A stretch of DNA of 42,703 nt from Deltaproteobacteria bacterium (GTDB lineage Bacteria > Myxococcota_A > Polyangia > JAAYKL01), in NCBI GenBank assembly GCA_028713995.1, contig JAQTNF010000029.1:1-42703 (forward strand). The letters are read 5' to 3'. The notes beneath the pieces are model-generated. The model searched no databases, was not told where the DNA came from, and worked only from the letters and a program-made list of their open reading frames with translations. A program made the position numbers and the translations under genes. Shown here in pieces: positions 3,974 through 42,703 of this stretch (positions within the stretch are counted from its first letter, which is position 1; the number at the start of each line of letters is the position of its first letter).

Positions 3974-4545
3974 GTCCTGCTCATTTCGACAGCCTTCTGA
4001 ACCAGGTAGTCAAACGACGGGACATCCAGACGCAATTTGTCGCGTACTGCGCGATAGTCGCCGTGGGCAGCCTTGTTCAGCACCCGGTCACGGGCCTCCA
4101 GATTCTTGCGGTCAATGGCCAGTCGGATGTCTTCATCAGTGATGTTGAGGCCGGCACGCTTGAGTGCCTCGATTACGGTCTCCGTGTTGCGCTCTAACAG
4201 TACGATCACCAGGCTGGCCGTTGGTAACCCATCGGGATTTAGCGCGCTGCGAACAACGGTTTTGCAACTCGCTCCCGGAAGCTTGCAGAGTTCCGATGCT
4301 CTGTCTGCGTCGTACAAGGCAATCACCATCTCGCCAGCACGCGTTAGAAGATCGATCTTGGGCGAACGGCACCACGCGAGCACTTGGTTGTTGTTCTTGA
4401 GCGGGCGTCCGTTGAGTCGCTTTGCAATGCTCCAACAATTCTGGCCGAGGACGTCGGCCACGCAACTGACAAGCAGTTCATGAAGCCCGAACTGCTTGAG
4501 GTTGGGACCACGCCGATCCTCGTAAAGGACGACTATTCCCCTCAT
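3970..4545 (-). CDS. TOPRIM-like (DUF4276-type) protein, partner of the ATPase
   Basis: This is a 191-residue protein. An early strand followed by an acidic residue (VVLYEDRRGPNLKQFGLHEL, residues 5-24) and a later strand ending in D-x-D (VIALYDADRASEL, about residues 75-87) fit the spacing of a small TOPRIM-like metal-binding fold such as DUF4276. The rest is helical. Its ATG overlaps the ATPase stop by four bases (ATGA), so the two are translationally coupled. Small TOPRIM-like proteins next to AAA ATPases are known as nuclease effectors in anti-phage systems (for example AriB of PARIS), and that role is inferred here. Base composition is visibly lower in GC than the flanks, which suggests transfer. 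Family assignment is by motif only. Confidence 0.6.
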   Translation of the reverse strand: MRGIVVLYEDRRGPNLKQFGLHELLVSCVADVLGQNCWSIAKRLNGRPLKNNNQVLAWCRSPKIDLLTRAGEMVIALYDADRASELCKLPGASCKTVVRSALNPDGLPTASLVIVLLERNTETVIEALKRAGLNITDEDIRLAIDRKNLEARDRVLNKAAHGDYRAVRDKLRLDVPSFDYLVQKAVEMSRT

Positions 4546-5762
4546 TCCGGTGGTTCCTGCAGCAGCGACCCCATATGACCCTCACTTCGGATCGACCCGA
4601 CCCCCATGTATGTCTCGAGCCAAGCATGTAGCTTGTCGCGATCGAGCCTGCGGATGCACGTTCGACCCATCGGCTGTTCGATCTCGCACACCGCCACGGA
4701 ACCGGCAGGATCGGAAAGGCTGTCAAGAAGCCTGTCCGAGTGGGTCGCAATCACCACCGGCGTTCGCTCACCAATAGACTCAAGGAAACCAACTATGCGG
4801 CCAACGAGCCCTGGGTGCAGGTGGATCTCCGGTTCGTCGAGCACGAGGAGTGAACGATCTCCACCAAGACGGAAGAGCGCAACAAATCCCAGGTAGGCGA
4901 GCCAACCGTCTGCCAACGCCGTTAACGGGAATTGCTTGTCCCGTCCATCTACCTTGATCGAGAGGGCTGCAGAACCTCCGCCTAACCCTGTTCGCACGTT
5001 CACGCTTTCGACTTCATGGCCAAGACCCAAACGGACCAACTCCATGGTTTCGCGCCAGTGGACATCGCCGAATTCGTTCTTTAGCGCATTGAAAGCGTTG
5101 ACCAGGTTGGAGCCCAGTCTCTCCAGTCTGTCCGTCGGCTCGACCAAGGACTCCTCGCGAAGGGGGCTCCGACGTCCGGTCGCCCGCGCGACCCAATGTG
5201 CGAGCGTGTCGAACGGAATGTGCACGTCGATACCCCGCAGCGCGTTGCGCGTTCTTTCGAATCCCGGATGCGGCGTAAAGGCCCCCGTGGCCGTGTGGAG
5301 CAACAACTGGAACGGCACCGTTGAGACGTCGACCAGCCCCTTGGGGCCACTGTAAAGCTTGGCAGAGTGGGGAGTGCGGTCAATCAAGTGAAGCGGCTCG
5401 GCATAGCCCTCGTATGGCCCCAGATCGAGATGCTCTTCTTCTACGTTGACGGCACCACCGCCGTTGCTCGTGACAGCGATCCGGTAGCTCAGGCGCGGAC
5501 CATCGCCTTCGATCTCGACGCCGAGCTCGAGTCGTGGCGCGTCATAACGCAGGAGCAGGAAAAGTCCGCCATGGACGCGGTTCAGCTCAGTGACGAACTG
5601 CTCGAAGCCCGCGCGCCGGAGCAGCTCGCAGGCCTCGACGATGCTGCTCTTGCCGGATCCGTTCTCACCGACGAGTACAGTCATTTCACCCAAATCGAGT
5701 GTCACGTCCTCCAAGCAACGTAGTCCTCTTACGGATATTTGTTTGATGCGATCGGAATTCAT
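4542..5762 (-). CDS. AAA/ABC-type ATPase of an OLD-like two-gene system
   Basis: This protein of about 406 residues is a RecF/OLD-like P-loop ATPase. After an N-terminal VRGLRCLEDVTLDLG strand comes Walker A GENGSGKS (residues 32-39), then a long insertion. The C-terminal half has a signature-like LTALADGWLAYLG, Walker B SLLVLDEPEIHLHP and an H-loop VVIATHSDRLLD. It lacks the C-terminal TOPRIM domain of OLD nucleases; that function seems to sit in the coupled downstream gene. The ATG at 5762 is chosen over upstream starts because GGAGG lies 6 bases before it. ATPases of this kind sense phage proteins in PARIS-like and other systems; the role here is inferred. Lower GC than the neighbours. Confidence 0.75.
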   Translation of the reverse strand: MNSDRIKQISVRGLRCLEDVTLDLGEMTVLVGENGSGKSSIVEACELLRRAGFEQFVTELNRVHGGLFLLLRYDAPRLELGVEIEGDGPRLSYRIAVTSNGGGAVNVEEEHLDLGPYEGYAEPLHLIDRTPHSAKLYSGPKGLVDVSTVPFQLLLHTATGAFTPHPGFERTRNALRGIDVHIPFDTLAHWVARATGRRSPLREESLVEPTDRLERLGSNLVNAFNALKNEFGDVHWRETMELVRLGLGHEVESVNVRTGLGGGSAALSIKVDGRDKQFPLTALADGWLAYLGFVALFRLGGDRSLLVLDEPEIHLHPGLVGRIVGFLESIGERTPVVIATHSDRLLDSLSDPAGSVAVCEIEQPMGRTCIRRLDRDKLHAWLETYMGVGSIRSEGHMGSLLQEPPE

Positions 5763-5802
5763 TTCGAACCTCCACTCCCTAATCCTGGACCATCTCCTAT
5801 CA

Positions 5803-5831
5803 ATTATGCCCGATCCGCGGCCGAGTTGCAC
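5803..5831 (-). promoter_or_regulatory. Possible promoter of the ATPase/TOPRIM-like operon
   Basis: On the minus strand a CATAAT -10 box (5803-5808) lies about 40 bases before the ATPase ATG. A weak GTGCAA -35 candidate sits 17 bases further upstream. Only the -10 is convincing. Confidence 0.3.
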
Positions 5832-5879
5832 ATGATCGGCGCGCAGCACCTGATCAAACGGGGTGTCCGCGAGTTTCTC

Positions 5880-9803: not shown

Positions 9804-11558
9804 ATGAGTGTCCTGAAAACAGCATCCATCATCTTCCTGGCGGTTTCCCTGCTCACGGGCGCCTGCTCGCAGGACGAGAGCGCAGCCCCTCCGCCACCCG
9901 CGAACCCCAAGCCCGTCGCGGCGCCCGCCGTTTTGGAGGTTGATGTGCAAGCCAAGGCCAAGGCGTTTCTCGACAAGTATTACGAGGACTTCGGAAAGGC
10001 CGAGCTCGCGCAGACGACCGCCCAGTGGACGGCCGAGAACACGGGCAAGAAGGAGGACTTCGACGCCTACGCCGCGGCCGATCTGGCGGTCAAGACGTTG
10101 CATAGCGACAAGGCCCGCTATGAGGAGCTGAAGAAGCTTCTCGAGGCCAAGGACAAGCTCGATCCTCTCACGCGGCGCTCCCTCGAGGTGGCGAACCTCG
10201 CGTTCAAGGGCAACCAGCTCCCCAAGGAGATCCTCGAGAAGATGGTCACCGAGTCGACGGCCATCGAGCAGATCTTCAACACCTACCGCGCCGATCTCGG
10301 GGGCAAGAAGCTCTCCAACAACGATCTCCTCGAGCTGCTCGCCAAGGAGCGCAGGACCGAGAAGCGCAAGGCCATCTGGGAGGCTCTCAAACAGGTCGGG
10401 GCCGAGGTGGCGCCGAGGCTCACGGCCCTTGCCAAGACCCGCAACGAGGCCGCGAAACTGCTCGGTTATGCGGACTTCTGGGACATGCAGGTGCGCCTGC
10501 AGGAGCACGATCCGGGCCTGCTCGTCGCCATCTTCGCGGACCTCGAGCGCGTCACCAACGCCCCGTTCAAGGCCATGAAGGAGGAGCTCGACAAGGAGCT
10601 CGCCGCGCGCTTCAAGGTCAAGGCCGAGGACATGATGCCCTGGCACTACGACAACCCGTTCTTCCAGGCGGCGCCGCCCTCGAGCAAGGTCGATCTCGAC
10701 GATTTCTACAAGGGGAAGGACAAGGAGGAGATCGTCCGGATCGCCAAGAGGTTCTACGACGACATCGGCCTGCCGCTCGGCGACGTGCTCGATCGCAGCG
10801 ACTTTTTCGAGCGCGAGGGCAAGAACCAGCACGCGTTCTGCACGGCCATCGACCGCAAGGGCGACGTGCGCATGCTGCTCAACATCAAGCCGACCTGCGA
10901 CTGGATGGAGACCATGCTCCACGAGTCGGGCCACGCGGTCTACGCGAAAAACCTCGACTTCTCGCTCCCGTTCAATTTGCGCGACTCGGCCCACATCTTC
11001 ACCACCGAGGGCGTGGCCATGCTCTTCGGCGCGCTCGGCAAGAACCCGGTGTGGATGGTCGAGTACGCGGGCGCGAGCCCGTCCAAGGTGAAGGATGCGG
11101 AAGGCGCGCTCCTCGAGCAGCGCAGGCGCGAGCAGCTCATCTTCACGCGCTGGACGCTCGTCATGTTCAATTTCGAGAAGGACATGTACGCCAACCCGGA
11201 TCAGGATTTGAACAAGCTTTGGTACGACGACGTGGAGCGCTTCCAGCTGCTCAAGCGCCCGCCCGAGCGCAACGCCCCGGACTGGGCGGCCAAGCCGCAC
11301 TTCACCATCGCGCCCGTCTACTACCACAACTACATGCTCGGAGAGCTGTTCGCGGCCCAGCTGCGCGCCACCATCGCCAAGGTCGTCAAGCACGACGGGC
11401 CGCTGTGGACCCTCAGCTACAGCGGCCGCAAGTCGATCGGCGATTACCTGCGCAAGAAGGTCTTCGAGCCCGGCATGGCAAAGCCCTGGCCCGAGTTCGT
11501 GACCGACGCCACTGGACAGCCCCTGTCCCCGGCCGCCTACGCGCAGGAGCTCAGGTAG
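9804..11558 (+). CDS. M2-family peptidyl-dipeptidase lipoprotein
   Basis: This protein of about 584 residues begins with a lipoprotein signal (hydrophobic IIFLAVSLLTGAC, lipobox Cys at residue 21), followed by a Pro/Ala-rich linker. The catalytic zinc motif HESGH (HExxH with a following Gly-His) lies near residue 377 in a long helical protein, with a later FTTEGVAMLFG segment supplying the third ligand Glu. This is the layout of angiotensin-converting-enzyme-like M2 peptidases, which remove C-terminal dipeptides. It should act on the periplasmic side of a membrane. The ATG at 9804 follows an AAGGAG site. It converges with the next gene with only three bases between stops. Confidence 0.85.
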   Translation: MSVLKTASIIFLAVSLLTGACSQDESAAPPPPANPKPVAAPAVLEVDVQAKAKAFLDKYYEDFGKAELAQTTAQWTAENTGKKEDFDAYAAADLAVKTLHSDKARYEELKKLLEAKDKLDPLTRRSLEVANLAFKGNQLPKEILEKMVTESTAIEQIFNTYRADLGGKKLSNNDLLELLAKERRTEKRKAIWEALKQVGAEVAPRLTALAKTRNEAAKLLGYADFWDMQVRLQEHDPGLLVAIFADLERVTNAPFKAMKEELDKELAARFKVKAEDMMPWHYDNPFFQAAPPSSKVDLDDFYKGKDKEEIVRIAKRFYDDIGLPLGDVLDRSDFFEREGKNQHAFCTAIDRKGDVRMLLNIKPTCDWMETMLHESGHAVYAKNLDFSLPFNLRDSAHIFTTEGVAMLFGALGKNPVWMVEYAGASPSKVKDAEGALLEQRRREQLIFTRWTLVMFNFEKDMYANPDQDLNKLWYDDVERFQLLKRPPERNAPDWAAKPHFTIAPVYYHNYMLGELFAAQLRATIAKVVKHDGPLWTLSYSGRKSIGDYLRKKVFEPGMAKPWPEFVTDATGQPLSPAAYAQELR

Positions 11559-11561
11559 TCG

Positions 11562-12482
11562 TCAGCCCTTCAGGACCAGAGAGAACGAGCGGATGCGACG
11601 CACCGGGAAGTAGGACTTCTTGGCCTTGGCGAGCCCCGGAAGGCCCATGTCGCCCTCCTTGTTGACGTACTTGAACCTGCCCGCGAACAGGCGGCGCGCG
11701 CACTCCCGGTCGAGGTACTGGTAGAGCCCCTTGAGGCGCGAGAACGCCTTCTCGAAGTGCAGCGCCCCCATCTCGTCGTTGACCCGCGCGCCGATGCCGA
11801 ACCCGGCCACGGCGCCGTCCACGCACACCGCGACGCCCCTCTCGCCGATCGCGTGCAGCTCGGCGAGGGCCTTCTCGGTCGCGTCCCGCTCGCAGCGAAG
11901 CGCGTCATGGTCGGTGCCCTCGCAGTCGCGCTCGCGGCACCACTTCTCAAGGAACGCGAGGCAATCCGGCACGGACTCCGGCTCGATGGATTCCACGCTC
12001 GCGCGGCCGGTCGCCACGTACTCGGCTTCGAATTGGTGGATGAGGTTGCGCTTGGGTGCGTAGCGCGAGCCCTTGAGCTCGGCCAAATCCGACGCGAGGA
12101 ACACGTACTCGCTCTCGTCCGCGCGCTCGGCGATCCCGAAGTGGCGGCCGACGCCATCGGCACCGAAGGCATCCACGTAATCCTCGGGCGCGTACCATAT
12201 CGAGCGGTGGCCGAGCCGCGCGGACGCGGCGGCGAGCCCGGCCGGCGGAAGGGGCCGTCCCGGCGTGAGCGGCATGAGCAGGTGGCGGTCGCCAGGGCGA
12301 TCGCCCCGCTCCCCTGAGAAAAAAAGAGCCCCGTCGAGAACGGCGAAGCTCACCTCGAAGCCGTCCGCTTCGCGCCAGGCCATGATCGAGGTGAGAGAGT
12401 AGACGGAGAGCGAATACGGCTGCTTCTCGAAGTAGGGCCGCAGGGTCGGCAGGGCGTCCAGGGTGAGCGGTTCGAAGTGCAT
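11562..12482 (-). CDS. DUF2156 (phosphatidylglycerol lysyltransferase C-terminal-like) protein
   Basis: This 306-residue soluble protein is built like the double GNAT fold of DUF2156: SLTSIMAWREADGFEVSF in the first half and, in the second, KRNLIHQFEAEYVATG, then AVAGFGIGARVNDEMGALHFEKA and RRLFAGRFKYVNKEGDMGLPGL. In MprF the same domain transfers aminoacyl groups from tRNA to phosphatidylglycerol. This copy lacks the membrane flippase, so the acceptor is unknown. It lies three bases downstream of a GNAT acetyltransferase gene on the same strand, suggesting one operon. Confidence 0.75.
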   Translation of the reverse strand: MHFEPLTLDALPTLRPYFEKQPYSLSVYSLTSIMAWREADGFEVSFAVLDGALFFSGERGDRPGDRHLLMPLTPGRPLPPAGLAAASARLGHRSIWYAPEDYVDAFGADGVGRHFGIAERADESEYVFLASDLAELKGSRYAPKRNLIHQFEAEYVATGRASVESIEPESVPDCLAFLEKWCRERDCEGTDHDALRCERDATEKALAELHAIGERGVAVCVDGAVAGFGIGARVNDEMGALHFEKAFSRLKGLYQYLDRECARRLFAGRFKYVNKEGDMGLPGLAKAKKSYFPVRRIRSFSLVLKG

Positions 12483-25680: not shown

Positions 25681-27159
25681 CTAGACCCCGAGCGCTCCGA
25701 AGAAGCCGTCGTCGAACGCGGGCAGGGCCACGCGGCGCTCGCGCACGCCGATGCCGAGGCGCACCATCTCGCGCGCGAGGGCGTCGCCGTCGATGAGGGC
25801 CACGGGCGGGAGGTTGGGCACGAGCGCTTCGGCGCGGGCGCGCTCGGACACGCTGCCGGTGGTCACGATGAGCCCGCTCATGGCGTCGTAGTGGTGCAGC
25901 GTGCCGCGCAGATCGGTGACCGTCCGGTCGCCGAGCGGCTCCTCGGGCGGGTTGCGGCGCAGCACGACCGCGGTGCGGAAGCGGCCGCCGTGCCTGCGAT
26001 CCTGGACCGACAGGTGGAACTCGTCCTTGCCGCCGCGCTCCACGGGCGTCATGACCCCGAAGCCGGAGCGGCGCAGGTACACGGTCATGACGCGCACGAA
26101 GCCGTCCATGGGCAGCGTCTTCACCTTGCGCAGGACCTGGCGCTCCGCGAGGCGCGCGAGCCGCTCGGTCGCCTCGGCCACCTGCCGTTCGAGGGCCACG
26201 ATCTCGGTGGACACCTCGCGCTCGGCGAGCGCCCAGCCGCTCCTGTGCTGCACGAACCTGGGGCGCAGGCCGCGCGACTCGCGCTCGAGCCCGTCCGCGG
26301 CGAGCAGTGCGTCGACCAGGATCGACCGCGACCGGTCGCCCTCCCCTGCGGCGCCTGCCTTGCCGAAGAACGTCTCGGCGAGCTGGATCGCGGGAACGGG
26401 ACGCGGCTGGCTGCGCAGGAGGGCTTCGGCCTGATCGGCCAGGTCGCGGGATGCCTCGCGGTGCGGCTCAGGCGCCTTGGGCGCTTCCGACATGCGGGGC
26501 TCGCCCTGTGCAGCCGTCGCAGGCGGCGGAACAGGGACCGCCCGCCCGGAGACGCCCTCGGCGATCTGGATCCGGGCCTGGGGCTGCGGCGGGCCCTGCA
26601 CCGCGTCGGGCTCGCCGGACCGCTTCTTGCGGCGCCTGCGCTTGCGCTTCCTGCCCTGTCCTTCCTCGCCATTTGGCGGACCCGCGGGCTCGGCCGATGC
26701 CGCCGGGTGCTGCGGCGCGACGTTCTCCACGGGCGCGGGTCTCGCAACCGGCGCGGGCGCGGGCCTGTCCCTGGGCGGCTGTTCGGTCCTGTCCTTGAGT
26801 GGCTGCGCGGGCTTGGCCTTCTGCGGCTGCGCGGGCTTGGCCTTATGGGGCTGCGCGAGCTTGTCCCTGGGCTCCTTCTGCGGCTGGGCGGGCTTCTCCT
26901 TTTGCGCTTGCGGCGACGGCCCGGGCGCCTTGCCGCCCCACTCGGCGAGGCCGAACACGCTCGGCCCGGTGCGCACCACCGGCCCTTTGCCCCGACCCTT
27001 GGTCACCACCGCCGACAGGCACGTGGCCATGGTCTGCTGCGGCGTCTTGCCCACATGCGACAGAAGGTCGAGGGCTACGGCCCTCTCCGCGATTTCCTTG
27101 GCGTGCATCGGCCGGCCCTCGCGCCTCATCACCTCGAGCGCGGCCTCCAGGAACGTCAT
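25681..27159 (-). CDS. HARE-HTH protein with degenerate Mrr-like nuclease domain
   Basis: This 492-residue protein starts with a HARE-HTH winged-helix domain (residues 2-75: FLEAALEVMRREGRPMHAKE, then GPVVRTGPSVFGLAEW), like RNA polymerase delta and chromatin ASXL proteins. A long Lys/Pro/Ala/Gln linker with basic KRKRRRRKKR follows. The C-terminal part resembles the Mrr fold: GFGVMTPVERGGKDEFHLSV, AVVLRRNPPEE, HYDAMSGLIVTTGSVSERAR and PPVALIDGDALAREMVRLG. The usual Q-x-K catalytic pair reads V-L-R-R, so nuclease activity is probably lost. It may bind DNA. The start at 27159 has AAGGAGGGTGAATC upstream. It heads an operon with the kinase. Confidence 0.72.
   Translation of the reverse strand: MTFLEAALEVMRREGRPMHAKEIAERAVALDLLSHVGKTPQQTMATCLSAVVTKGRGKGPVVRTGPSVFGLAEWGGKAPGPSPQAQKEKPAQPQKEPRDKLAQPHKAKPAQPQKAKPAQPLKDRTEQPPRDRPAPAPVARPAPVENVAPQHPAASAEPAGPPNGEEGQGRKRKRRRRKKRSGEPDAVQGPPQPQARIQIAEGVSGRAVPVPPPATAAQGEPRMSEAPKAPEPHREASRDLADQAEALLRSQPRPVPAIQLAETFFGKAGAAGEGDRSRSILVDALLAADGLERESRGLRPRFVQHRSGWALAEREVSTEIVALERQVAEATERLARLAERQVLRKVKTLPMDGFVRVMTVYLRRSGFGVMTPVERGGKDEFHLSVQDRRHGGRFRTAVVLRRNPPEEPLGDRTVTDLRGTLHHYDAMSGLIVTTGSVSERARAEALVPNLPPVALIDGDALAREMVRLGIGVRERRVALPAFDDGFFGALGV
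26780..26900 (-). repeat. Degenerate repeats encoding KAKPAQPQ-type linker
   Basis: On the coding strand units of about 24-27 bases encode repeated Lys-Ala-Lys-Pro-Ala-Gln-Pro blocks inside the HARE-HTH protein. They are imperfect copies in tandem, so the linker length may vary between strains. Confidence 0.6.
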
Positions 27160-35868: not shown

Positions 35869-36626
35869 CTTTTGCCTCCGTACACGAGGGTCGCGTCGAA
35901 GACGGGCCCGTCGCAGCACACGCAGCGGTAGGTTCCGTCCGCCATGGTCACGGCGCAGCCCCGGCACGTGCCGAGCCCGCACGCCATGCCCGACTCGAGG
36001 GCCACCTCGCAGGGCGCATTCTCTTCCAGCGCCACGCGGGCCACGACCTCGAGCATGGGGCTCGGCCCGCACGCATAGACGCGCACCCTTCCGTGGCCGG
36101 TCATGGCGCGCGCGAGGGCTCCGGTGACGAGCCCCTTTTCGCCCCGCGAGCCGTCCTCGGTGGTCTCGACGAGGTGCGCGGCTTTGCGGATCTCTTCGCA
36201 CATCACGAGATCGGCCGCGGTCCGGGCTCCATACAGGAACAGGGGCCTGCGCGGCGCGAGCGACGCGGCCAGGAACACGAGCGGCGCCACGCCCACGCCG
36301 CCCGCGACGAGCACGGGACGCTCGTCCTCGTCCGGATCGGTGAACCCTTTGCCGCACGGGCTAAGGACGGTCAGGCTGTCGCCGGGCAGCAGCTTCGCGA
36401 GCCGACGCGTGCCCTCCCCCACGACCCGGACCAGGATCGCCGCGCGCTCCCCCGCCTCCACCAGCGAGAAGGCCCGCGGCAGGAGCGGCGCCGTGCCCCA
36501 GTCGCCGCGCACCATGGCGAACTGCCCGGGCCGCGCCTCGATGGGCCGCTCGGCCGAGAAGCGCAGGAGGGCGTACCCCGGGGCAAGGACGCGCACCTCC
36601 TCCACCCGCGCGACGCGGGAGTCCAT
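35865..36626 (-). CDS. pyrK: Dihydroorotate dehydrogenase electron-transfer subunit
   Basis: This protein of about 253 residues is a PyrK-like FAD/NAD(P) reductase: RPGQFAMVRGDWG, LPRAFSLVEAGE, VLVAGGVGVAPLVFLA and VYACGPSPMLEVV. The C-terminal cluster Cys residues sit in CGLGTCRGCAV and RCVCCDGPVF. It passes electrons from dihydroorotate through FAD and a 2Fe-2S cluster to NAD. It starts four bases after the TPR lipoprotein stop and overlaps pyrD by four bases. Confidence 0.95.
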   Translation of the reverse strand: MDSRVARVEEVRVLAPGYALLRFSAERPIEARPGQFAMVRGDWGTAPLLPRAFSLVEAGERAAILVRVVGEGTRRLAKLLPGDSLTVLSPCGKGFTDPDEDERPVLVAGGVGVAPLVFLAASLAPRRPLFLYGARTAADLVMCEEIRKAAHLVETTEDGSRGEKGLVTGALARAMTGHGRVRVYACGPSPMLEVVARVALEENAPCEVALESGMACGLGTCRGCAVTMADGTYRCVCCDGPVFDATLVYGGKR

Positions 36627-36630
36627 GTTC

Positions 36631-37212
36631 CTAGAAGCCTTCCCTGAGATCGGAGATGTTCTGCTCGATCTTGGCCATGTTGGCCTGGTTCTGCAGCTCG
36701 GGCGGCGCTTCCCTGTAAACCTGCATGGCCTGCTCCCACGCGCTGCGGGCGGCCGGCTTGTCGCCGATCTCCTTGTAGATCGCGCCGAGGTTGTTGAGCG
36801 CGATGGCCGCCTTGACCTTGGAGTTTCCCGAGAAGCGCAGGTAGACGTCGATGGCCGCCTTGTAATGGGTGATGGCGCCGTCCTTGTCGAGCAGCTTGTA
36901 GGCCAGATCCGCCGCGTAGAAGTGCGCCTCGGCCCGATCGATGACCACGAGGTTCGCCTCGTCGAGCACGCGAGCGGCCTCGGAGTACTCGTCATACGCG
37001 CCCTGGGTGTTGCCGTCGGCGATGGCGCTTCCCGCGGATTCCATGCGCGCCTTGGCCTCGAGCTCCGCCGCCGGAGGACCGGCCTGTTCCTTGCTCCCTT
37101 CCGCGCCGCCCACGCTGTCCGAACCTCCCGGTTGCGCCGCGCCGCATCCGGCCGCCAGCGCCGCGACGAGCGCGATCACGCCCCACAGCTCCTTGTCGAT
37201 GAAGCTCGTCAT
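36631..37212 (-). CDS. TPR-repeat lipoprotein
   Basis: This protein of about 193 residues has a signal peptide with lipobox ALAAGC, a Gly/Ser-rich linker and about three TPR-like helical pairs (GAYDEYSEAARVLDEA, AITHYKAAIDVYLRF, AALNNLGAIYKEIGD-type). It should be anchored to the periplasmic face of a membrane as a protein-binding scaffold; no partner can be named. GAGGAGG lies before the ATG at 37212. It is divergent from the M3 peptidase gene and appears to lead the pyrK-pyrD run. Confidence 0.82.
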   Translation of the reverse strand: MTSFIDKELWGVIALVAALAAGCGAAQPGGSDSVGGAEGSKEQAGPPAAELEAKARMESAGSAIADGNTQGAYDEYSEAARVLDEANLVVIDRAEAHFYAADLAYKLLDKDGAITHYKAAIDVYLRFSGNSKVKAAIALNNLGAIYKEIGDKPAARSAWEQAMQVYREAPPELQNQANMAKIEQNISDLREGF

Positions 37213-37287
37213 AGTCGCCTCCTCTCGCCGAAAAACCTTGGACCCACGTATATCAACCAGCCGCCATTTTTGATAGAGGGAGCGACC

Positions 37288-39303
37288 GTGGACGATCGCA
37301 CCGCCATCGAGGATGATCCGGGCCTCCCAGGCTCGGCTTTCGCCGCGAGCTGCCGCGAGCGCTTGACCGAGGCGCGCGCCCTGCGCGACCGGATTGCGGG
37401 GATCGACGGCCCCGGAACCGCGGCGGGCGTTCTCGCCCCCCTGAACGACCTCGGCATCGAGATGGACGGGGTGCTGGCGGGCTGCGAGCTCTACGAGAGC
37501 GTCCACCCGGATGAGGGAGTGCGCAAGGCCGCCGAGATCGTGAAGCAGGAGGCCACGAAACTCGCGTCCGAGCTGTCCCTCGACCGGAAGGTGTTCCGCG
37601 CCGTGTCGTCCGTCGATCCTGCCCCGCTCGCCTGTGCCCCGGAAGCCGAGCGCTTCCTCGCCCACACGCTGCGCGACTTCCGGCGTGCGGGCGTCGATGC
37701 GGACAGCGCCACGCGGACGCGCATCCAGGAATTGAACGAGGAGCTCGTGGTCCTGGGCCAGGAGTTCAACCGCAACATCCGAGAGGACCGGCGCGAGATC
37801 CTGCTCGACGGGCCCGCAGACCTCGCCGGGCTGCCCGAGGATTACGTGGCGTCCCACGCGCCCGGCGCGGACGGGAAGATCCGCGTCACGACCGACACCC
37901 CGGATCTGGCGCCGTTCATGACCTACGCGCGCAACGGGCGCGCCCGGGCCCTGCTCCACGCCTTGAACCTGAACCGCGCGTACCCGAGGAACATCGAGGT
38001 GCTCTCGCGCATCCTCGTGCGGCGTCACGAGCTGGCCCGCCTGCTCGGCCACGACAGCTACGCGTCCTACGCCGCCGAGGACAAGATGATCCGCACTGCG
38101 GACGCCATCGCCGATTTCGTGCGCCGTATCGCGGACGACTCCCGGGAACGCATGTGGCTCGACTACACCGCCATCCTCGAACGCAAGCGCGCTGACGACC
38201 CGTCCGCGATCGAGGTGCGCGACGACGAGAAGGCCTTCTACGGCGAGCTGGCACGGGCCGGGAAGGCGGGTTTCAAGTCGCAGGAGATCCGCCCCTACCT
38301 TCCCTTTTCGCGGGCCAAGGCGGGCGTGCTCGAGGTCACGCAGCGCCTGTTCGGGCTCGAGTACCGCAAGGTGGACGAGCCCGCCTGGCACCCCTCGGTC
38401 GAGACCTTCGACGTGTACGATGACGGCGAGCGCGTGGGCCGATTCCTGCTCGATCTGCATCCGAGGGACGGCAAGTACAAGCACGCGGCCATGTTCCCGA
38501 TCCGCTCGGGCGTCCTTGAGCGCCAGCTCCCGGAGGCGGCGCTCGTCTGCAACTTCCCGGACCCCGGTGCGTCGTCGGGCCCGGCCCTGCTCGAGCACGG
38601 CGATCTCGTCACGCTCTTCCACGAGTTCGGCCACCTGCTGCACCACATCCTGGGCGGCCGGCGGCGCTACGTGCGCTTCTCGGGCGTGGCCACGGAGTGG
38701 GACTTCGTGGAGGTGCCCTCCCAGCTCCTCGAGGAGTGGGCGTACGACCCCGATTGCCTGGCCTCGTTCGCCGCGCATCATGAGACGGGCGCGCCCATTC
38801 CGCGCGAGATGATCGACCGGCTGAACGCGGCGCGCAGCTTCGGCCGCGGCCTGCGCGTGACCCAGCAGATGCTCTACGCCGCCGTGTCGCTCGAGTACCA
38901 CGACCGCGACCCCGAAGGGCTCGACACCACGGCCCTGCTCGCGGAGCTCCAGAACCGCATGACCCCTTTTCGCCACGTGGACGGCACGCACATGCAGGCC
39001 AGCTTCGGCCACCTGGAGGGCTACTCGGCGCTCTACTACTCCTACATGTGGTCGCTCGCCATCGTGCGCGACCTGCTCGGCGAGTTCCGGCGCGCGGGGC
39101 TGTTCGCGCCCGACGTCGCCGCTCGCTACGCGCGCTGCGTGCTCGCGCCCGGCGGCTCCAAGGACGCAGCGGAGCTCGTGCGCGATTTCCTCGGCCGCGG
39201 CTACGACCTCGAAGCGTTCGGAACGTGGCTGGCCGAAGGCGCTCGGGGCAATGAGCCGGGACATCGTGACCCCACCTCGAGCGAGGAGAGACGGGCCGAG
39301 TGA
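37288..39303 (+). CDS. M3-family oligopeptidase (thimet/oligopeptidase A type)
   Basis: This protein of about 671 residues has the M3 zinc motif LFHEFGHLLHHILGG (HExxH, about residues 446-450) with the third ligand in WDFVEVPSQLLEEW, and the preceding FPDPGASSGPALLEHGDLVTL loop. The long helical N-terminal part is typical. It cleaves short peptides in the cytoplasm; no signal is present. The start is a GTG at 37288 with GAGGG before it. The last 15 residues are charged and extend past the fold. The AT-rich Rhs region begins about 100 bases downstream. Confidence 0.92.
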   Translation: MDDRTAIEDDPGLPGSAFAASCRERLTEARALRDRIAGIDGPGTAAGVLAPLNDLGIEMDGVLAGCELYESVHPDEGVRKAAEIVKQEATKLASELSLDRKVFRAVSSVDPAPLACAPEAERFLAHTLRDFRRAGVDADSATRTRIQELNEELVVLGQEFNRNIREDRREILLDGPADLAGLPEDYVASHAPGADGKIRVTTDTPDLAPFMTYARNGRARALLHALNLNRAYPRNIEVLSRILVRRHELARLLGHDSYASYAAEDKMIRTADAIADFVRRIADDSRERMWLDYTAILERKRADDPSAIEVRDDEKAFYGELARAGKAGFKSQEIRPYLPFSRAKAGVLEVTQRLFGLEYRKVDEPAWHPSVETFDVYDDGERVGRFLLDLHPRDGKYKHAAMFPIRSGVLERQLPEAALVCNFPDPGASSGPALLEHGDLVTLFHEFGHLLHHILGGRRRYVRFSGVATEWDFVEVPSQLLEEWAYDPDCLASFAAHHETGAPIPREMIDRLNAARSFGRGLRVTQQMLYAAVSLEYHDRDPEGLDTTALLAELQNRMTPFRHVDGTHMQASFGHLEGYSALYYSYMWSLAIVRDLLGEFRRAGLFAPDVAARYARCVLAPGGSKDAAELVRDFLGRGYDLEAFGTWLAEGARGNEPGHRDPTSSEERRAE

Positions 39304-39415
39304 GCCCACTTGTGGACACTACAGCGGATGTGGCTGCCCATGGCCGATCCATCGGCCGACGGGGAGGAAAGTCGCGTGAATAGCGCGCGCCCCAGCGCCT
39401 TGGTCCCGCGCTCGT

Positions 39416-40333
39416 CTATAATCTCGAAGATCGCGTGTTCCATATCACAAATACGACTATCAACCCATACGCAGAAGCCGCCGCCACTATTACGCCAATT
39501 GGAATCTCATGATAGAAATAAAGATATAGCCCAACCGCCGATATCGCGACATAACCTCCAATTGCCATCAATACCATTTTTCTAAAACGATAGGCTCTCC
39601 CCGTTCTGGTCGCCACGATTGCTATAATTACCAATCCTATCGATATCAGCAAATGGAGGACTAGAAATTTCAGATGGGTTTTCCGCAATGCATCGCATCC
39701 ATCTTTATATCCCATATCACACGACATCTTCATCATTCTAATGTATTCTTTTGAATCTCTTTCAATTATCTCATCACCAGAATTATACAGCGCCACTATG
39801 TAGCAGGCTTGCGCTTCCCTATTTTCGCACGCCTTTTGATAATATCCATAAGCTTCCTTCTCCTTCCCCTCATCGTGGAGCGCCTGGGCCGCGAAAGAGC
39901 ACGCATCCGCCCAACCATAGGAGCATCCCCTTTTCAGTATCGCAATGGCTCTCTTTGCGTCTTTTTCGATTCCGACAGCACCTATCTCGTATCTCCCTCC
40001 AGCTATTACGCATGCCGTCGGCTCTCCCATTTCACAAGATTTCTCATACAGTCCTTGCGCACGCCCTTCTTCCCCTGGTTTCTTCTCCAGGTAGACGGCC
40101 ACGGCCATGCAACTTGCCGCAATGCCACGTGCACATGATTCTTCATGCTCTTTGACAAAAGCAAGCAACGACGATAGCGACCCCGAAGAATCCTCTTCTG
40201 CTGTTTCCGGAGTCCTCCCCGCCTCCCCTCCTGCTATTGCGTTAATAGAGAATAGCATAACAACCGCGATTGCCACGATGGTTTTAACTGTTATGCTATT
40301 TTCTCCACCACAGACACATATCCTATTTGCCAT
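39416..40333 (-). CDS. Sel1-repeat membrane protein, possible Rhs immunity factor
   Basis: This protein of about 305 residues has a signal-like N-terminal hydrophobic segment, about four Sel1-like repeats with paired Cys (CEMGEPTACVIAGGRYE, CSYGWADACSFAAQ, CENREAQACYIVALYN, CDMGYKDGC), then three membrane segments from LHLLISIGLVIIAIVA to the end. Sel1 proteins bind partners; Cys-paired versions occur in the periplasm. The gene is AT-rich, unlike the chromosome to its left. It lies directly after an orphan Rhs tip fragment, a position typical for an immunity gene, though that role is inferred. AGGA precedes the ATG at 40333; ATG at 40348 lacks a site. Confidence 0.7.
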   Translation of the reverse strand: MANRICVCGGENSITVKTIVAIAVVMLFSINAIAGGEAGRTPETAEEDSSGSLSSLLAFVKEHEESCARGIAASCMAVAVYLEKKPGEEGRAQGLYEKSCEMGEPTACVIAGGRYEIGAVGIEKDAKRAIAILKRGCSYGWADACSFAAQALHDEGKEKEAYGYYQKACENREAQACYIVALYNSGDEIIERDSKEYIRMMKMSCDMGYKDGCDALRKTHLKFLVLHLLISIGLVIIAIVATRTGRAYRFRKMVLMAIGGYVAISAVGLYLYFYHEIPIGVIVAAASAYGLIVVFVIWNTRSSRL

Positions 40334-40344
40334 TTTACGTCCTA

Positions 40345-40518
40345 TCATTTTGAGGATCTTCGCTCATAGCATCGGGTCGACAAAACTCCAGATTGCAAAT
40401 TGACCATCCGCAATAGCATCCTGACATCTTTGGGCTCGGGAGAATCTGGATCTGTCATACCGCCAGCACTGCTTTGGGGCCTATCTTCATCCTCGTCCTT
40501 TGGAGGCGGAGCAGTTCT
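40345..40518 (-). pseudogene. Orphan fragment of a second Rhs C-terminal tip
   Basis: On the minus strand a start-less frame encodes PPPKDEDEDRP, then MTDPDSPEPKDVRMLLRMVN and stops at 40345-40347. The Rhs protein at 41679-42703 has PDPDSDEPKDVKMLLRTGML at its tip. The DNA matches over about 50 bases with scattered changes. This is a diverged paralogous piece of an Rhs tip, left behind when a new tip replaced it. It lies between a small membrane protein gene and the Sel1 gene. Confidence 0.7.
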
Positions 40519-40545
40519 TCACTCTCAGTAGCCCTCCCATTTATT

Positions 40546-40875
40546 TTACAGAGGCATTATTGCCGTTTTTAGAAAAGCTATTGCACAATATATTGCATAT
40601 GATTCAGCATATGATATCTTTCTTTTCTCCCATATTGTTACAATCAGTCTGTTCCATATCATCATTACCACGACGGCTCCAACAGGAAATACTATTATGC
40701 AGTCAACGACTGCAACAATCATCACATACTCCGAGCATTTTAATATGCTCATTATGTCTTCTAAATATGATGTCTTATCGATTTTATCGATAAACAGTCC
40801 ATTGGCAAATGAGTATACTAGTATCAGCAACGTGGTAGTAATGTTAAATGCAATCATTCCAATTCTATCTCCCAT
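40546..40875 (-). CDS. Small two- or three-span membrane protein, candidate immunity
   Basis: This 109-residue, AT-rich gene encodes hydrophobic segments near residues 8-28 (IAFNITTTLLILVYSFANG), 50-73 (MIVAVVDCIIVFPVGAVVVMM) and at the C-terminus. I do not recognise the family. AAAGGGTAGG lies upstream of the ATG. Small membrane proteins next to Rhs tips are often immunity factors against membrane-active toxins; this is inferred from place and build only. Confidence 0.55.
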   Translation of the reverse strand: MGDRIGMIAFNITTTLLILVYSFANGLFIDKIDKTSYLEDIMSILKCSEYVMIVAVVDCIIVFPVGAVVVMMIWNRLIVTIWEKRKISYAESYAIYCAIAFLKTAIMPL

Positions 40876-40918
40876 ACTGTTTGCCTACCCTTTCAAATGG
40901 TCAAGATGATTTCATGGG

Positions 40919-41095
40919 TCACTTCTTGATTCTCGACGACTCCACCACCGACTCGTCGCTCTCGTCGTACATGTGCTTGAGGGAATGCAGCCCGACCATC
41001 ACGCGCGTCGGCACTCGTGGACATCGGGGTGCTCCTTGCAGTTTGTGTTGCAACTCACTGCTGAGCCCCCAATGTCCACATTGTCCATTTTTCGT
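40919..41095 (-). pseudogene. IS5-type transposase N-terminal fragment
   Basis: A minus-strand frame ending at TGA 40919-40921 encodes RVPTRVMVGLHSLKHMYDES and then DESVVESSRIKK. TRxMVGLHYLKHxxxLSDExVV is the N-terminal block of IS5-group transposases, normally followed by ENPYWQYF, which is missing here. The GC content is high and differs from the AT-rich tip genes on both sides. The frame stays open upstream but has no start codon. It is a scar of an insertion sequence. Confidence 0.5.
41017..41079. repeat. Long imperfect hairpin with nested stem
   Basis: Arms at 41017-41034 (GTGGACATCGGGGTGCTC) and 41063-41079 pair with one mismatch and one bulge. Inside the loop TTGCA (41036-41040) pairs with TGCAA (41049-41053). 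A 14-base palindrome CAATGT-CC-ACATTG overlaps the right arm at 41070-41083. It lies within the transposase fragment and may be a leftover terminal or recombination structure. Confidence 0.55.
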
Positions 41096-41133
41096 CTGAT
41101 CCCGAGAAGATGAGCCCTTCGGCGCGACCCCCG

Positions 41134-41580
41134 TTAGCCCAGGCCCCTCATGTCACCCCGGCGCGATCCGGAAGAACCCTCTTTCCCGCTTTCGTCTGCT
41201 ATTTTCCGCATATATTTAGAGAATTCCATTATTGACATCGTTCTCACAATATATGCAATGACCATCGTCACACCGCTGAGCACAATTATAGCTATTTTCC
41301 AGCATATCATCATCAGATGATCCCTCGCAATTATTAACACTCCACTGTATTGTTCATCGGCATTTACCTTCATTTCAAGGACTCCATAAAAATTCTCTTT
41401 GCTGTAACCCGCCCCTGTTTGTATGTAGCCGCGATAGTGCTCTCTAATGCCCATTGCCATTATCCCACATATCATCGCATAGGAAACCACTATACTCACG
41501 CAGAACAACCTATGTCTCTTCTTCACATATATTTGTATTTTTGTTATTTGCTCGTCCTGCTTTTTCCCTATTTTATCCAT
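41134..41580 (-). CDS. Two-span membrane protein, candidate immunity for the Rhs tip
   Basis: This protein of about 148 residues has a basic N-terminus and two membrane segments (FCVSIVVSYAMICGIMAMGI near residue 30 and MMICWKIAIIVLSGVTMVIA near 90) with a short extracytoplasmic part between. I know no family. It is the first gene after the rhs stop, 98 bases downstream on the same strand, the usual place for the cognate immunity gene. GGAGG lies seven bases before the ATG at 41580. Its last 17 residues run into GC-rich sequence, so the end may be a junction. Confidence 0.6.
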   Translation of the reverse strand: MDKIGKKQDEQITKIQIYVKKRHRLFCVSIVVSYAMICGIMAMGIREHYRGYIQTGAGYSKENFYGVLEMKVNADEQYSGVLIIARDHLMMICWKIAIIVLSGVTMVIAYIVRTMSIMEFSKYMRKIADESGKEGSSGSRRGDMRGLG

Positions 41581-41678
41581 TCTCTTTCCTCCCAACCTCT
41601 TCGCGGGGAATTTTTTTGTCCTATGATGCTACCGTGCCAACGGAATCAAGTTTGGCGGATTTTTCGTTTATTGTCACA

Positions 41679-42703
41679 TTAGTTCGTTCGCGACCAGTCA
41701 GGTGGCATCGGGTCAACGAATCCCGGATTGTTGACATTCAGCCACTTGTATGGGTCGTCATATGGCACGTGCAGATCCCGTCTGAGGTACATTCTTCCAT
41801 CGTCGCTTCCCAATATCTTCTTTTCTTTTGGCCTGAGCCAGAACCACTTCCGGAGGGGGATCTTGTCAAATGGATATTCTTCGATGTCTCGATCCTTTTC
41901 TTTGGTCTTGGGCTTCAGCATTCCCGTTCTAAGAAGCATTTTAACATCTTTGGGTTCATCTGAGTCTGGATCAGGCATGGCGCCTGGGTAGCTTGGTAAA
42001 TCGCACTTCCCTGTTGTTGTCATGCATGCTTCTTTAATTTTATTGTCTTTCTCTGACATAATTATCTTGAGATAAGATAACTGTTGTCCATTTGACGCGT
42101 CTATATCTACTACAATGGCAACAGTATACCAGTTGCCGTCCTTGTCTTGATATCGCGTTTTGATAAACGTTCGCTCAATAGGAATAAGTTGTTGAGCGCC
42201 ATCGACTGCGGTTCCCTGTATATAAATGCGCTCAGACCATTCCTTGTTCCTGTTCATTCCGTGCTTGTCGCTGGAAACTGCGTCCTGTACACGAGTTAGG
42301 ATATTTTGCTGGTAGTTATAAATTGCATCAGATGCCATGCGACCAATGCCAGCCAATTTCCCGCCTCTGAGATCCTGGCCAGTCGTAGCCTGCCATGCGT
42401 ACATTTGAGTTTCTTGCAACAAGTTTGAATATACCCAAAACACTGCGTGAACAATAAAAGGATAACGTCCTTCTGGATCTCTCCTGACATTCCCCATATT
42501 CCCCACATACGCATAACCATTCCCATAGTTCCCGAGGTCGCCCCAGATGCCGATGCTGTCGAGCGACAGGAAGCGACCGAGGCTGGGGGCGTAGTAGCGC
42601 GAGCGGTTGTAGTACAACCCGCTCTCGGGGTCGTACTCGCGGCCGGCGAAGCGGTACGGCACGTACACGTCCCCGTGGTCGGGGTCGGCCTCGTTGCCGT
42701 ACA
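41679..42703 (-). CDS. Rhs-family protein, 3' part with variable toxin tip
   Basis: The frame is open to the right edge, so the N-terminal core lies outside. The core end is clear: PYRFAGREYDPESGLYYNRS, RYYAPSLGRFLSLDSIG, NGYAYVGNMGNVRRDPEG with the DPxG boundary where the tip is cut off. The tip (about 260 residues from RYPFIVHAVFWVYSN) is AT-rich and matches no toxin family I can name; it includes PDPDSDEPKDVKMLLRTG and ends in FVDPMPPDWSRTN. Rhs proteins form shells that release the tip into rival cells. The composition switch near 42540 marks the core-tip boundary. Confidence 0.85.
   Translation of the reverse strand, partial: YGNEADPDHGDVYVPYRFAGREYDPESGLYYNRSRYYAPSLGRFLSLDSIGIWGDLGNYGNGYAYVGNMGNVRRDPEGRYPFIVHAVFWVYSNLLQETQMYAWQATTGQDLRGGKLAGIGRMASDAIYNYQQNILTRVQDAVSSDKHGMNRNKEWSERIYIQGTAVDGAQQLIPIERTFIKTRYQDKDGNWYTVAIVVDIDASNGQQLSYLKIIMSEKDNKIKEACMTTTGKCDLPSYPGAMPDPDSDEPKDVKMLLRTGMLKPKTKEKDRDIEEYPFDKIPLRKWFWLRPKEKKILGSDDGRMYLRRDLHVPYDDPYKWLNVNNPGFVDPMPPDWSRTN

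Follow-up and report, generated by a model that had tools for sequence, protein, structure and literature searches.

Orphan modules of contact-dependent growth inhibition (CDI) systems are described in PMC3150448; some of them are interrupted by transposon genes, and an orphan immunity protein was shown to be produced. According to the same account rhs loci share the layout of these modules, and the modules themselves are marked by borders that encode VENN. Here we describe a probable locus of this kind, a row of small genes behind an rhs gene at the right end of a contig from a Deltaproteobacteria bacterium (JAQTNF010000029.1, C29 in our numbering). The window, i.e. the stretch of DNA that was analysed, is the whole contig of 42,703 nucleotides, and the genome is 4.98 Mb in 218 contigs, 97% complete. 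We think it probable that the row consists of displaced Rhs tip/immunity modules, in which a membrane protein with Sel1 repeats and paired cysteines would be an orphan immunity protein (Table 1).

The likeness to the orphan cdiA-CT/cdiI modules described in PMC3150448 lies in tip fragments that lack a delivery part and stand in a row after the main gene with a candidate immunity gene behind each, in the disruption of several modules by transposon genes, and in an orphan immunity gene that retains its start codon. Compared with the modules described there, the tip scrap in the window is far more decayed, two short blocks with a broken frame. Furthermore, no VENN-like shared border motif was identified at the core/tip junction of the window, and the contig stops within the rhs gene.

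Immunity proteins built of Sel1 repeats are also in print. Sel1E neutralises VgrG4 of Klebsiella (PMC7108748), and in enterohaemorrhagic Escherichia coli RhsAI, which has Sel1-like repeats and is encoded after rhsA, was proposed as the immunity protein of RhsA (PMC7216683). The latter paper also modelled PAARI on 1OUV, suggested a chaperone role for it, and cites PA5087/PA5088 as solved Sel1-repeat immunity proteins. A table in PMC6838775 places Sel1-repeat proteins among those associated with Rhs loci in Acinetobacter, and in PMC12469244 Sel1-domain proteins also appear as toxic proteins. The protein in the window resembles Sel1E, RhsAI and PAARI in that its repeats belong to a protein encoded beside a toxin gene, and the modelling template of PAARI is its best solved match. 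It differs from the three, as they are described in these papers, in its five cysteine pairs, its N-terminal hydrophobic segment and its three predicted C-terminal spans, and in coming from a genome without a match to the sheath gene (VipB) of the type VI secretion system (T6SS). Sel1E was assayed for function, whereas the window protein is a candidate immunity protein known from its sequence. An earlier note on this DNA had called a Sel1 immunity protein unusual, which applies to the three predicted spans but not to the repeats. The likeness to 1ouv, which PMC7216683 names as Helicobacter cysteine-rich protein C, lies in repeats with aligned, paired cysteines; the Helicobacter cysteine-rich proteins (1ouv, 1klx) have nothing that corresponds to the membrane spans or to the position behind an Rhs tip. 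Orphan modules and Sel1-repeat immunity proteins are already known from the accounts cited, and the predicted membrane anchoring of the Cys-paired form is, in relation to them, a modest novelty.

The window also resembles the polyimmunity loci of PMC3482391 in having several candidate immunity genes one after another on a single strand. Those loci are described as never interrupted by toxin cassettes, whereas a tip scrap lies between the genes of the window; in this the window is closer to the regular toxin-cassette arrays with which that paper contrasts them.

The tip scrap

The scrap was recognised through a motif that it shares with the current tip. A degenerate DNA pattern for DPDSxEPKDV had two mismatch-free sites in the window, one in the current tip and one in the scrap, when 0.00 were expected from shuffles of the window. 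At the scrap, 37 of 50 bases are identical to the tip DNA (block 1), and none of 2000 dinucleotide shuffles aligned as well. A second block agrees with the last 120 bases of the tip gene at 22 of 27 positions, with one gap, and was equalled by 2 of 2000 shuffles, or by 5 of 2000 in comparison with the whole tip. The two blocks are collinear with the tip and block 2 lies near the 3' end in both, but they are separated by about 205 bases in the tip and by about 20 in the scrap, which suggests that about 185 bases have been lost from within a tip 3' end. The window thus has a displaced fragment homologous to the tip, on the same strand and behind the main rhs gene, as an orphan-module array would. 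Judged on these alignments, the scrap is a decayed relative of the tip and not a chance motif.

The motif is also rare elsewhere. No stretch carrying it was found in genome_contigs, where records of the own genome may be excluded, and viral_contigs gave a single one, reading DPDTREPKDV, in a frame of 159 aa with no Rhs core seen there by eye. These counts rule out a motif that is widespread outside Rhs tips.

It is conceivable that the scrap does not derive from a tip and is instead a short repeat or linker that became duplicated in this region, such as a border at which cassettes recombine, comparable to the VENN-encoding borders of the CDI modules. Only two short blocks are shared, and the sequence ahead of block 1 shows no alignment with the tip, as such a linker would allow. 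The collinearity of the blocks, with the second near the 3' end in both, speaks against it, and so does the position of the motif in the current tip, which is inside the tip, about 87 codons from its end, and not at the junction with the core. When the collected loci were scanned for the motif, no copy turned up beyond the window's own locus apart from the viral one. We therefore consider a linker improbable.

The earlier note had reported a diverged piece of a second tip with the motif DPDSxEPKDVxMLLR, a Sel1-repeat membrane protein after it, and two further small membrane proteins between that gene and rhs, and had taken the whole as a record of past tip exchange in which downstream genes were kept. 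All these elements are present, the membrane character of the proteins being predicted from hydropathy. The observation is real, and the history was most likely read rightly, supported by the two blocks of the scrap and by two other loci of the same genome described below, an array on contig C33 and a tip followed by a Sel1-like gene on contig C39.

The Sel1-repeat protein and its neighbours

The gene adjoining the scrap, about 1.3 kb past the tip stop with orfA and orfB in between, encodes a protein with five C-x7-C pairs, one N-terminal hydrophobic segment and three C-terminal ones, which are predicted membrane spans. Its best match among solved structures is 1ouv (E 2.7e-22, residues 95-227), followed by 1klx, 'Cysteine Rich Protein B' (E 1.4e-6, residues 96-219), and its paired cysteines align with those of both. 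The Pfam Sel1 family matched below its cut-off only (E 0.0028, 18.6 bits against 30.7). The pairs would presumably form disulphides, and the topology is likewise a prediction. The open reading frame (ORF) begins at the end of the scrap, its first ATG overlapping the TGA that closes the motif-bearing frame; a second ATG, 15 bases on at 40333, follows AGGA. No match to the protein was found in viral_contigs with a scan that reaches close relatives only. Among the class matches listed from other genomes none passes residue 237 of 310, so these matches cover the repeats and hardly the membrane spans.

The first gene after the tip, orfA, has hydrophobic stretches at residues 25-43 and 81-112, and its ATG is immediately preceded by GGGAGGAAAGAG, a good ribosome-binding stretch. 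The shorter orfB has two hydrophobic stretches by hydropathy and a PHROG membrane-protein match (E 3.4e-5) that falls on a hydrophobic stretch. Neither had a match in the 316 other genomes of the class. As to whether these are genes at all, purines occupy codon position 1 at 0.69-0.72 in orfA, orfB and the Sel1 ORF as against 0.30-0.39 in four antisense ORFs, and this codon-position composition favours the three as coding. The region could still be nothing more than acquired DNA of low GC content in which small ORFs arose by chance: in shuffles of 39416-41679, ORFs of at least 109 aa appeared in 163 of 300 and of at least 153 aa in 38 of 300. An ORF of at least 310 aa, the length of the Sel1 protein, appeared in only 1 of 300, and neither the clear Sel1 homology nor the codon-position bias nor the homology of the scrap agrees with chance, which we regard as very improbable indeed.

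Traces of mobile elements are found between and beside the genes. The last codons of orfA lie within the end of a repeat that agrees with contig C135 at 25 of 25 bases and with C204 at 89% over 35 bases; on C135 the repeat is present as two inverted copies separated by about 0.2 kb. Between orfA and orfB there is a weak likeness to the N-terminus of a transposase. At the border of the low-GC island and a peptidase M3 gene, 39250-39286 has matches at 89% to repeats lying close to the ends of four contigs, C203, C51, C176 and C6, and 39325-39378 matches contig C74 at 85%. The first of these may be a multi-copy element at which the assembly broke.

Taken together, the window may be read as the downstream array of an rhs locus, with orfA, the first gene after the current tip, as the likely cognate immunity gene. 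Older modules would have been pushed away from the rhs core by earlier tip exchanges: orfB would be left over from one that has lost its tip, and the decayed scrap with the Sel1 membrane protein from another. Insertions resembling transposons would flank the modules and wear them down. For the Sel1 protein the most likely past role is that of an orphan immunity protein, a role that it may retain today. Its repeats with their paired cysteines would be held outside the cytoplasm by the membrane spans and would bind incoming toxin domains of the type to which the scrap once belonged. We infer here the toxin and immunity activities, the pairing of scrap and Sel1 gene, and the history of exchange. 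If exported Cys-paired repeat proteins do serve as immunity proteins, the matching toxins would act at or outside the cytoplasmic membrane.

Rhs loci in the same and in other genomes

Three Rhs cores were found in the own genome, and at two of them, in the window and on C39, a Cys-rich Sel1-like protein stands behind the tip. The C39 protein, directly after its tip, has 256 residues, four of them X where the contig reads N, and an N-terminal hydrophobic stretch by eye. It scored 28.4 bits (E 5e-7) with a Sel1 profile of 117 aligned stretches, none of them from C39, when the best of 1000 shuffles reached 12.0 bits; in a check for circularity the score was 28.8 bits after all rows from the own genome had been dropped. 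The piece that follows its gene has RHS repeats (Pfam E 2e-22) with Tse5 as best PDB match (E 6.4e-20). A search of the own genome with a 12-row Sel1 profile, at E up to 1, gave five places, the window, C68 (8.2e-11), C39 (1.4e-3), C3 (3.2e-3) and C5 (0.29), and of these the window's and that on C39 sit behind Rhs cores. With random placement, the chance that one of the four places outside the window lies at most 3 kb behind either of the two other Rhs cores is about 0.005 (4 x 6 kb / 4.98 Mb).

The third locus, on C33, is a stronger and, going by its repeated tip parts, clear example of a cassette array. The FGE-sulfatase-domain protein behind the tip (Pfam E 5.4e-21) is followed by orphan tip copies, 256 bp of one part of the tip at 98.4% and 180 bp of the tip 3' end at 97.2%, by a paralogous FGE-domain protein (E 3.8e-24), and by a WD40-repeat protein (E 8.1e-8). 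One inverted-end element stands after each of three cassette genes, the elements being 97-98% alike. On C39 one end of such an element lies behind the Sel1-like gene, and in the window no such element was found. The near-identical tip parts and the two diverged candidate immunity paralogues make C33 a natural pair for the study of shifts in immunity specificity. The collection of scaffold-type candidates in this genome is a further modest new point.

Several results weigh against displaced modules with a Sel1 immunity protein. A Sel1-like ORF was found in 0 of 100 regions behind Rhs cores of other genomes of the class, even at E 10; 25 of these regions came from the family and the other 75 were mostly the best-scoring among the class matches listed, and 91 were at least 2 kb long. 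The same-family genomes compared belong to other genera only. Conversely, a pattern for the Rhs core within about 1.5 kb was seen at 0 of 30 Sel1 loci from other genomes, the sole match among the 32 loci scanned being the window's own. On C39, the Sel1-like protein was recognised neither by Pfam nor by PDB search, its structure model, made without relatives, is poor (pLDDT, the model's confidence score, 43.7), and its score with the 12-row profile is close to that of C3, which is not beside a known Rhs core. In the window, the two blocks of the scrap are short and are now in different reading frames, and the length of orfB, taken alone, is within chance.

Since both counts from elsewhere were zero, the association of Rhs with Sel1 is drawn from a single genome, and a connection between Rhs and Cys-rich Sel1 proteins characterises either the own genome or relatives outside the sample. 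The expectation, implied by the earlier note, that such small genes co-occur with Rhs was borne out for the Sel1 type at two of three loci at home and at none of the 100 regions elsewhere. A general rule for the class that Sel1 follows Rhs is ruled out by these downstream regions.

These results bear most directly on another explanation, in which the scrap is a true tip remnant and the Sel1 membrane protein is an accessory protein (an adaptor, a chaperone or an effector) or the product of an unrelated gene acquired at the same low-GC hot spot. The toxic Sel1-domain proteins of PMC12469244 and the chaperone role suggested for PAARI give it precedents, at least as far as those papers describe them. 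Sel1 repeats are moreover common, matched in 231 of 317 class genomes, the own one included, and the absence from the 100 other downstream regions fits as well. On the other hand, a Cys-rich Sel1-like protein stands behind the tip at two of the three Rhs loci of a genome with only five profile matches in all, and an immunity gene would be expected to lie as this one does, downstream, on the same strand and with its start overlapping the stop of the scrap frame. We consider an accessory or unrelated protein possible, if on the unlikely side, and orphan immunity the most likely and best-supported of the candidate roles of the Sel1 protein.

A wider proposal would be that the lineage keeps rhs cassette arrays with exported scaffold immunity proteins (Cys-paired Sel1 proteins with or without spans, FGE-sulfatase-domain and WD40 proteins), that these neutralise toxins outside the cytoplasm, and that the short inverted-repeat elements after the C33 and C39 cassettes drive the exchange. 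As a whole we hold this to be rather unlikely, and put it forward tentatively.

Delivery of the Rhs tip by a T6SS is disfavoured. The sheath gene (VipB, PF05943) had no match in the own genome, and it is present in 2 of 14 genomes of the family. The locus would add to the rhs loci that record past tips through leftover immunity genes, here in a genome where no T6SS sheath gene was detected.

Table 1. Positions of the features in the window and at the two other Rhs loci of the same genome
Feature	Position	Strand	Remarks
Rhs protein, C-terminal part	41679..42701	-	340 aa, open at contig end
Conserved Rhs core	~42468-42701	-	
Current tip	41679-42467	-	
Motif DPDSDEPKDV of current tip	41944..41972	-	pattern match
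orfA	41134..41580	-	148 aa from ATG; predicted membrane protein; first gene after tip; candidate cognate immunity gene
Repeated-element end overlapping orfA 3' end	41155..41189	.	matches to contigs C135, C204
Scrap like DUF772-type transposase N-terminus	40940..41020	-	Pfam DUF772 E 0.054, below cut-off, weak
orfB	40546..40875	-	109 aa; predicted membrane protein; candidate orphan immunity gene, weakly supported
Decayed tip scrap	40369..40464	-	alignments, shuffles, motif pattern
Scrap block 1	40415-40464	-	motif DPDSPEPKDV at 40424-40452
Scrap block 2	40369-40395	-	matches 3' end of current tip, other frame
Cys-paired Sel1-repeat protein	39416..40348	-	310 aa; candidate orphan immunity protein
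Repeat scrap at border of low-GC island and peptidase M3 gene	39250..39378	.	matches to own contigs
C39 locus	2-2430 in C39:1-9000		Rhs tip, then Cys-rich diverged Sel1-like protein, then RHS-repeat piece
One end of C33-type element on C39	1747-1782 in C39:1-9000		after Sel1-like gene
C33 cassette array	5915-14203 in C33:26000-41635		rhs with tip, FGE-sulfatase-domain protein, tip-part copies, FGE paralogue, short frame, WD40-repeat protein
C33 inverted-end elements	9828-9985, 12010-12176, 14037-14203 in C33:26000-41635		~158-167 bp; one after each of three cassette genes

The Rhs C-terminus and the surrounding DNA

The rhs gene runs past the right contig end, and its last 340 residues are all that the window contains; TIGR03696 (Rhs-associated core) matches residues 1-78 of them with E 2.6e-16. 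The current tip had no match in the 316 other class genomes, and in genome_contigs a scan that reaches no further than close relatives found none. Its structure model, made without relatives, is poor (pLDDT 44.9). The GC content is 0.60-0.77 across 36000-39499, drops from about 0.70 to 0.38-0.55 across the array and the tip and recovers to 0.65 at the rhs core, so that the tip and the genes that follow it stand out in composition from the DNA around them.

Two genes further to the left were also noted. The first, at 25681-27159 on the minus strand, combines a HARE-HTH domain (Pfam E 9.2e-19) with an Mrr-type restriction endonuclease domain (2.6e-13) and is a possible defence gene. The second, at 4542-5849 on the same strand, encodes an AAA ATPase of the AAA_21/AbiEii-like type (Pfam E 3.1e-23).

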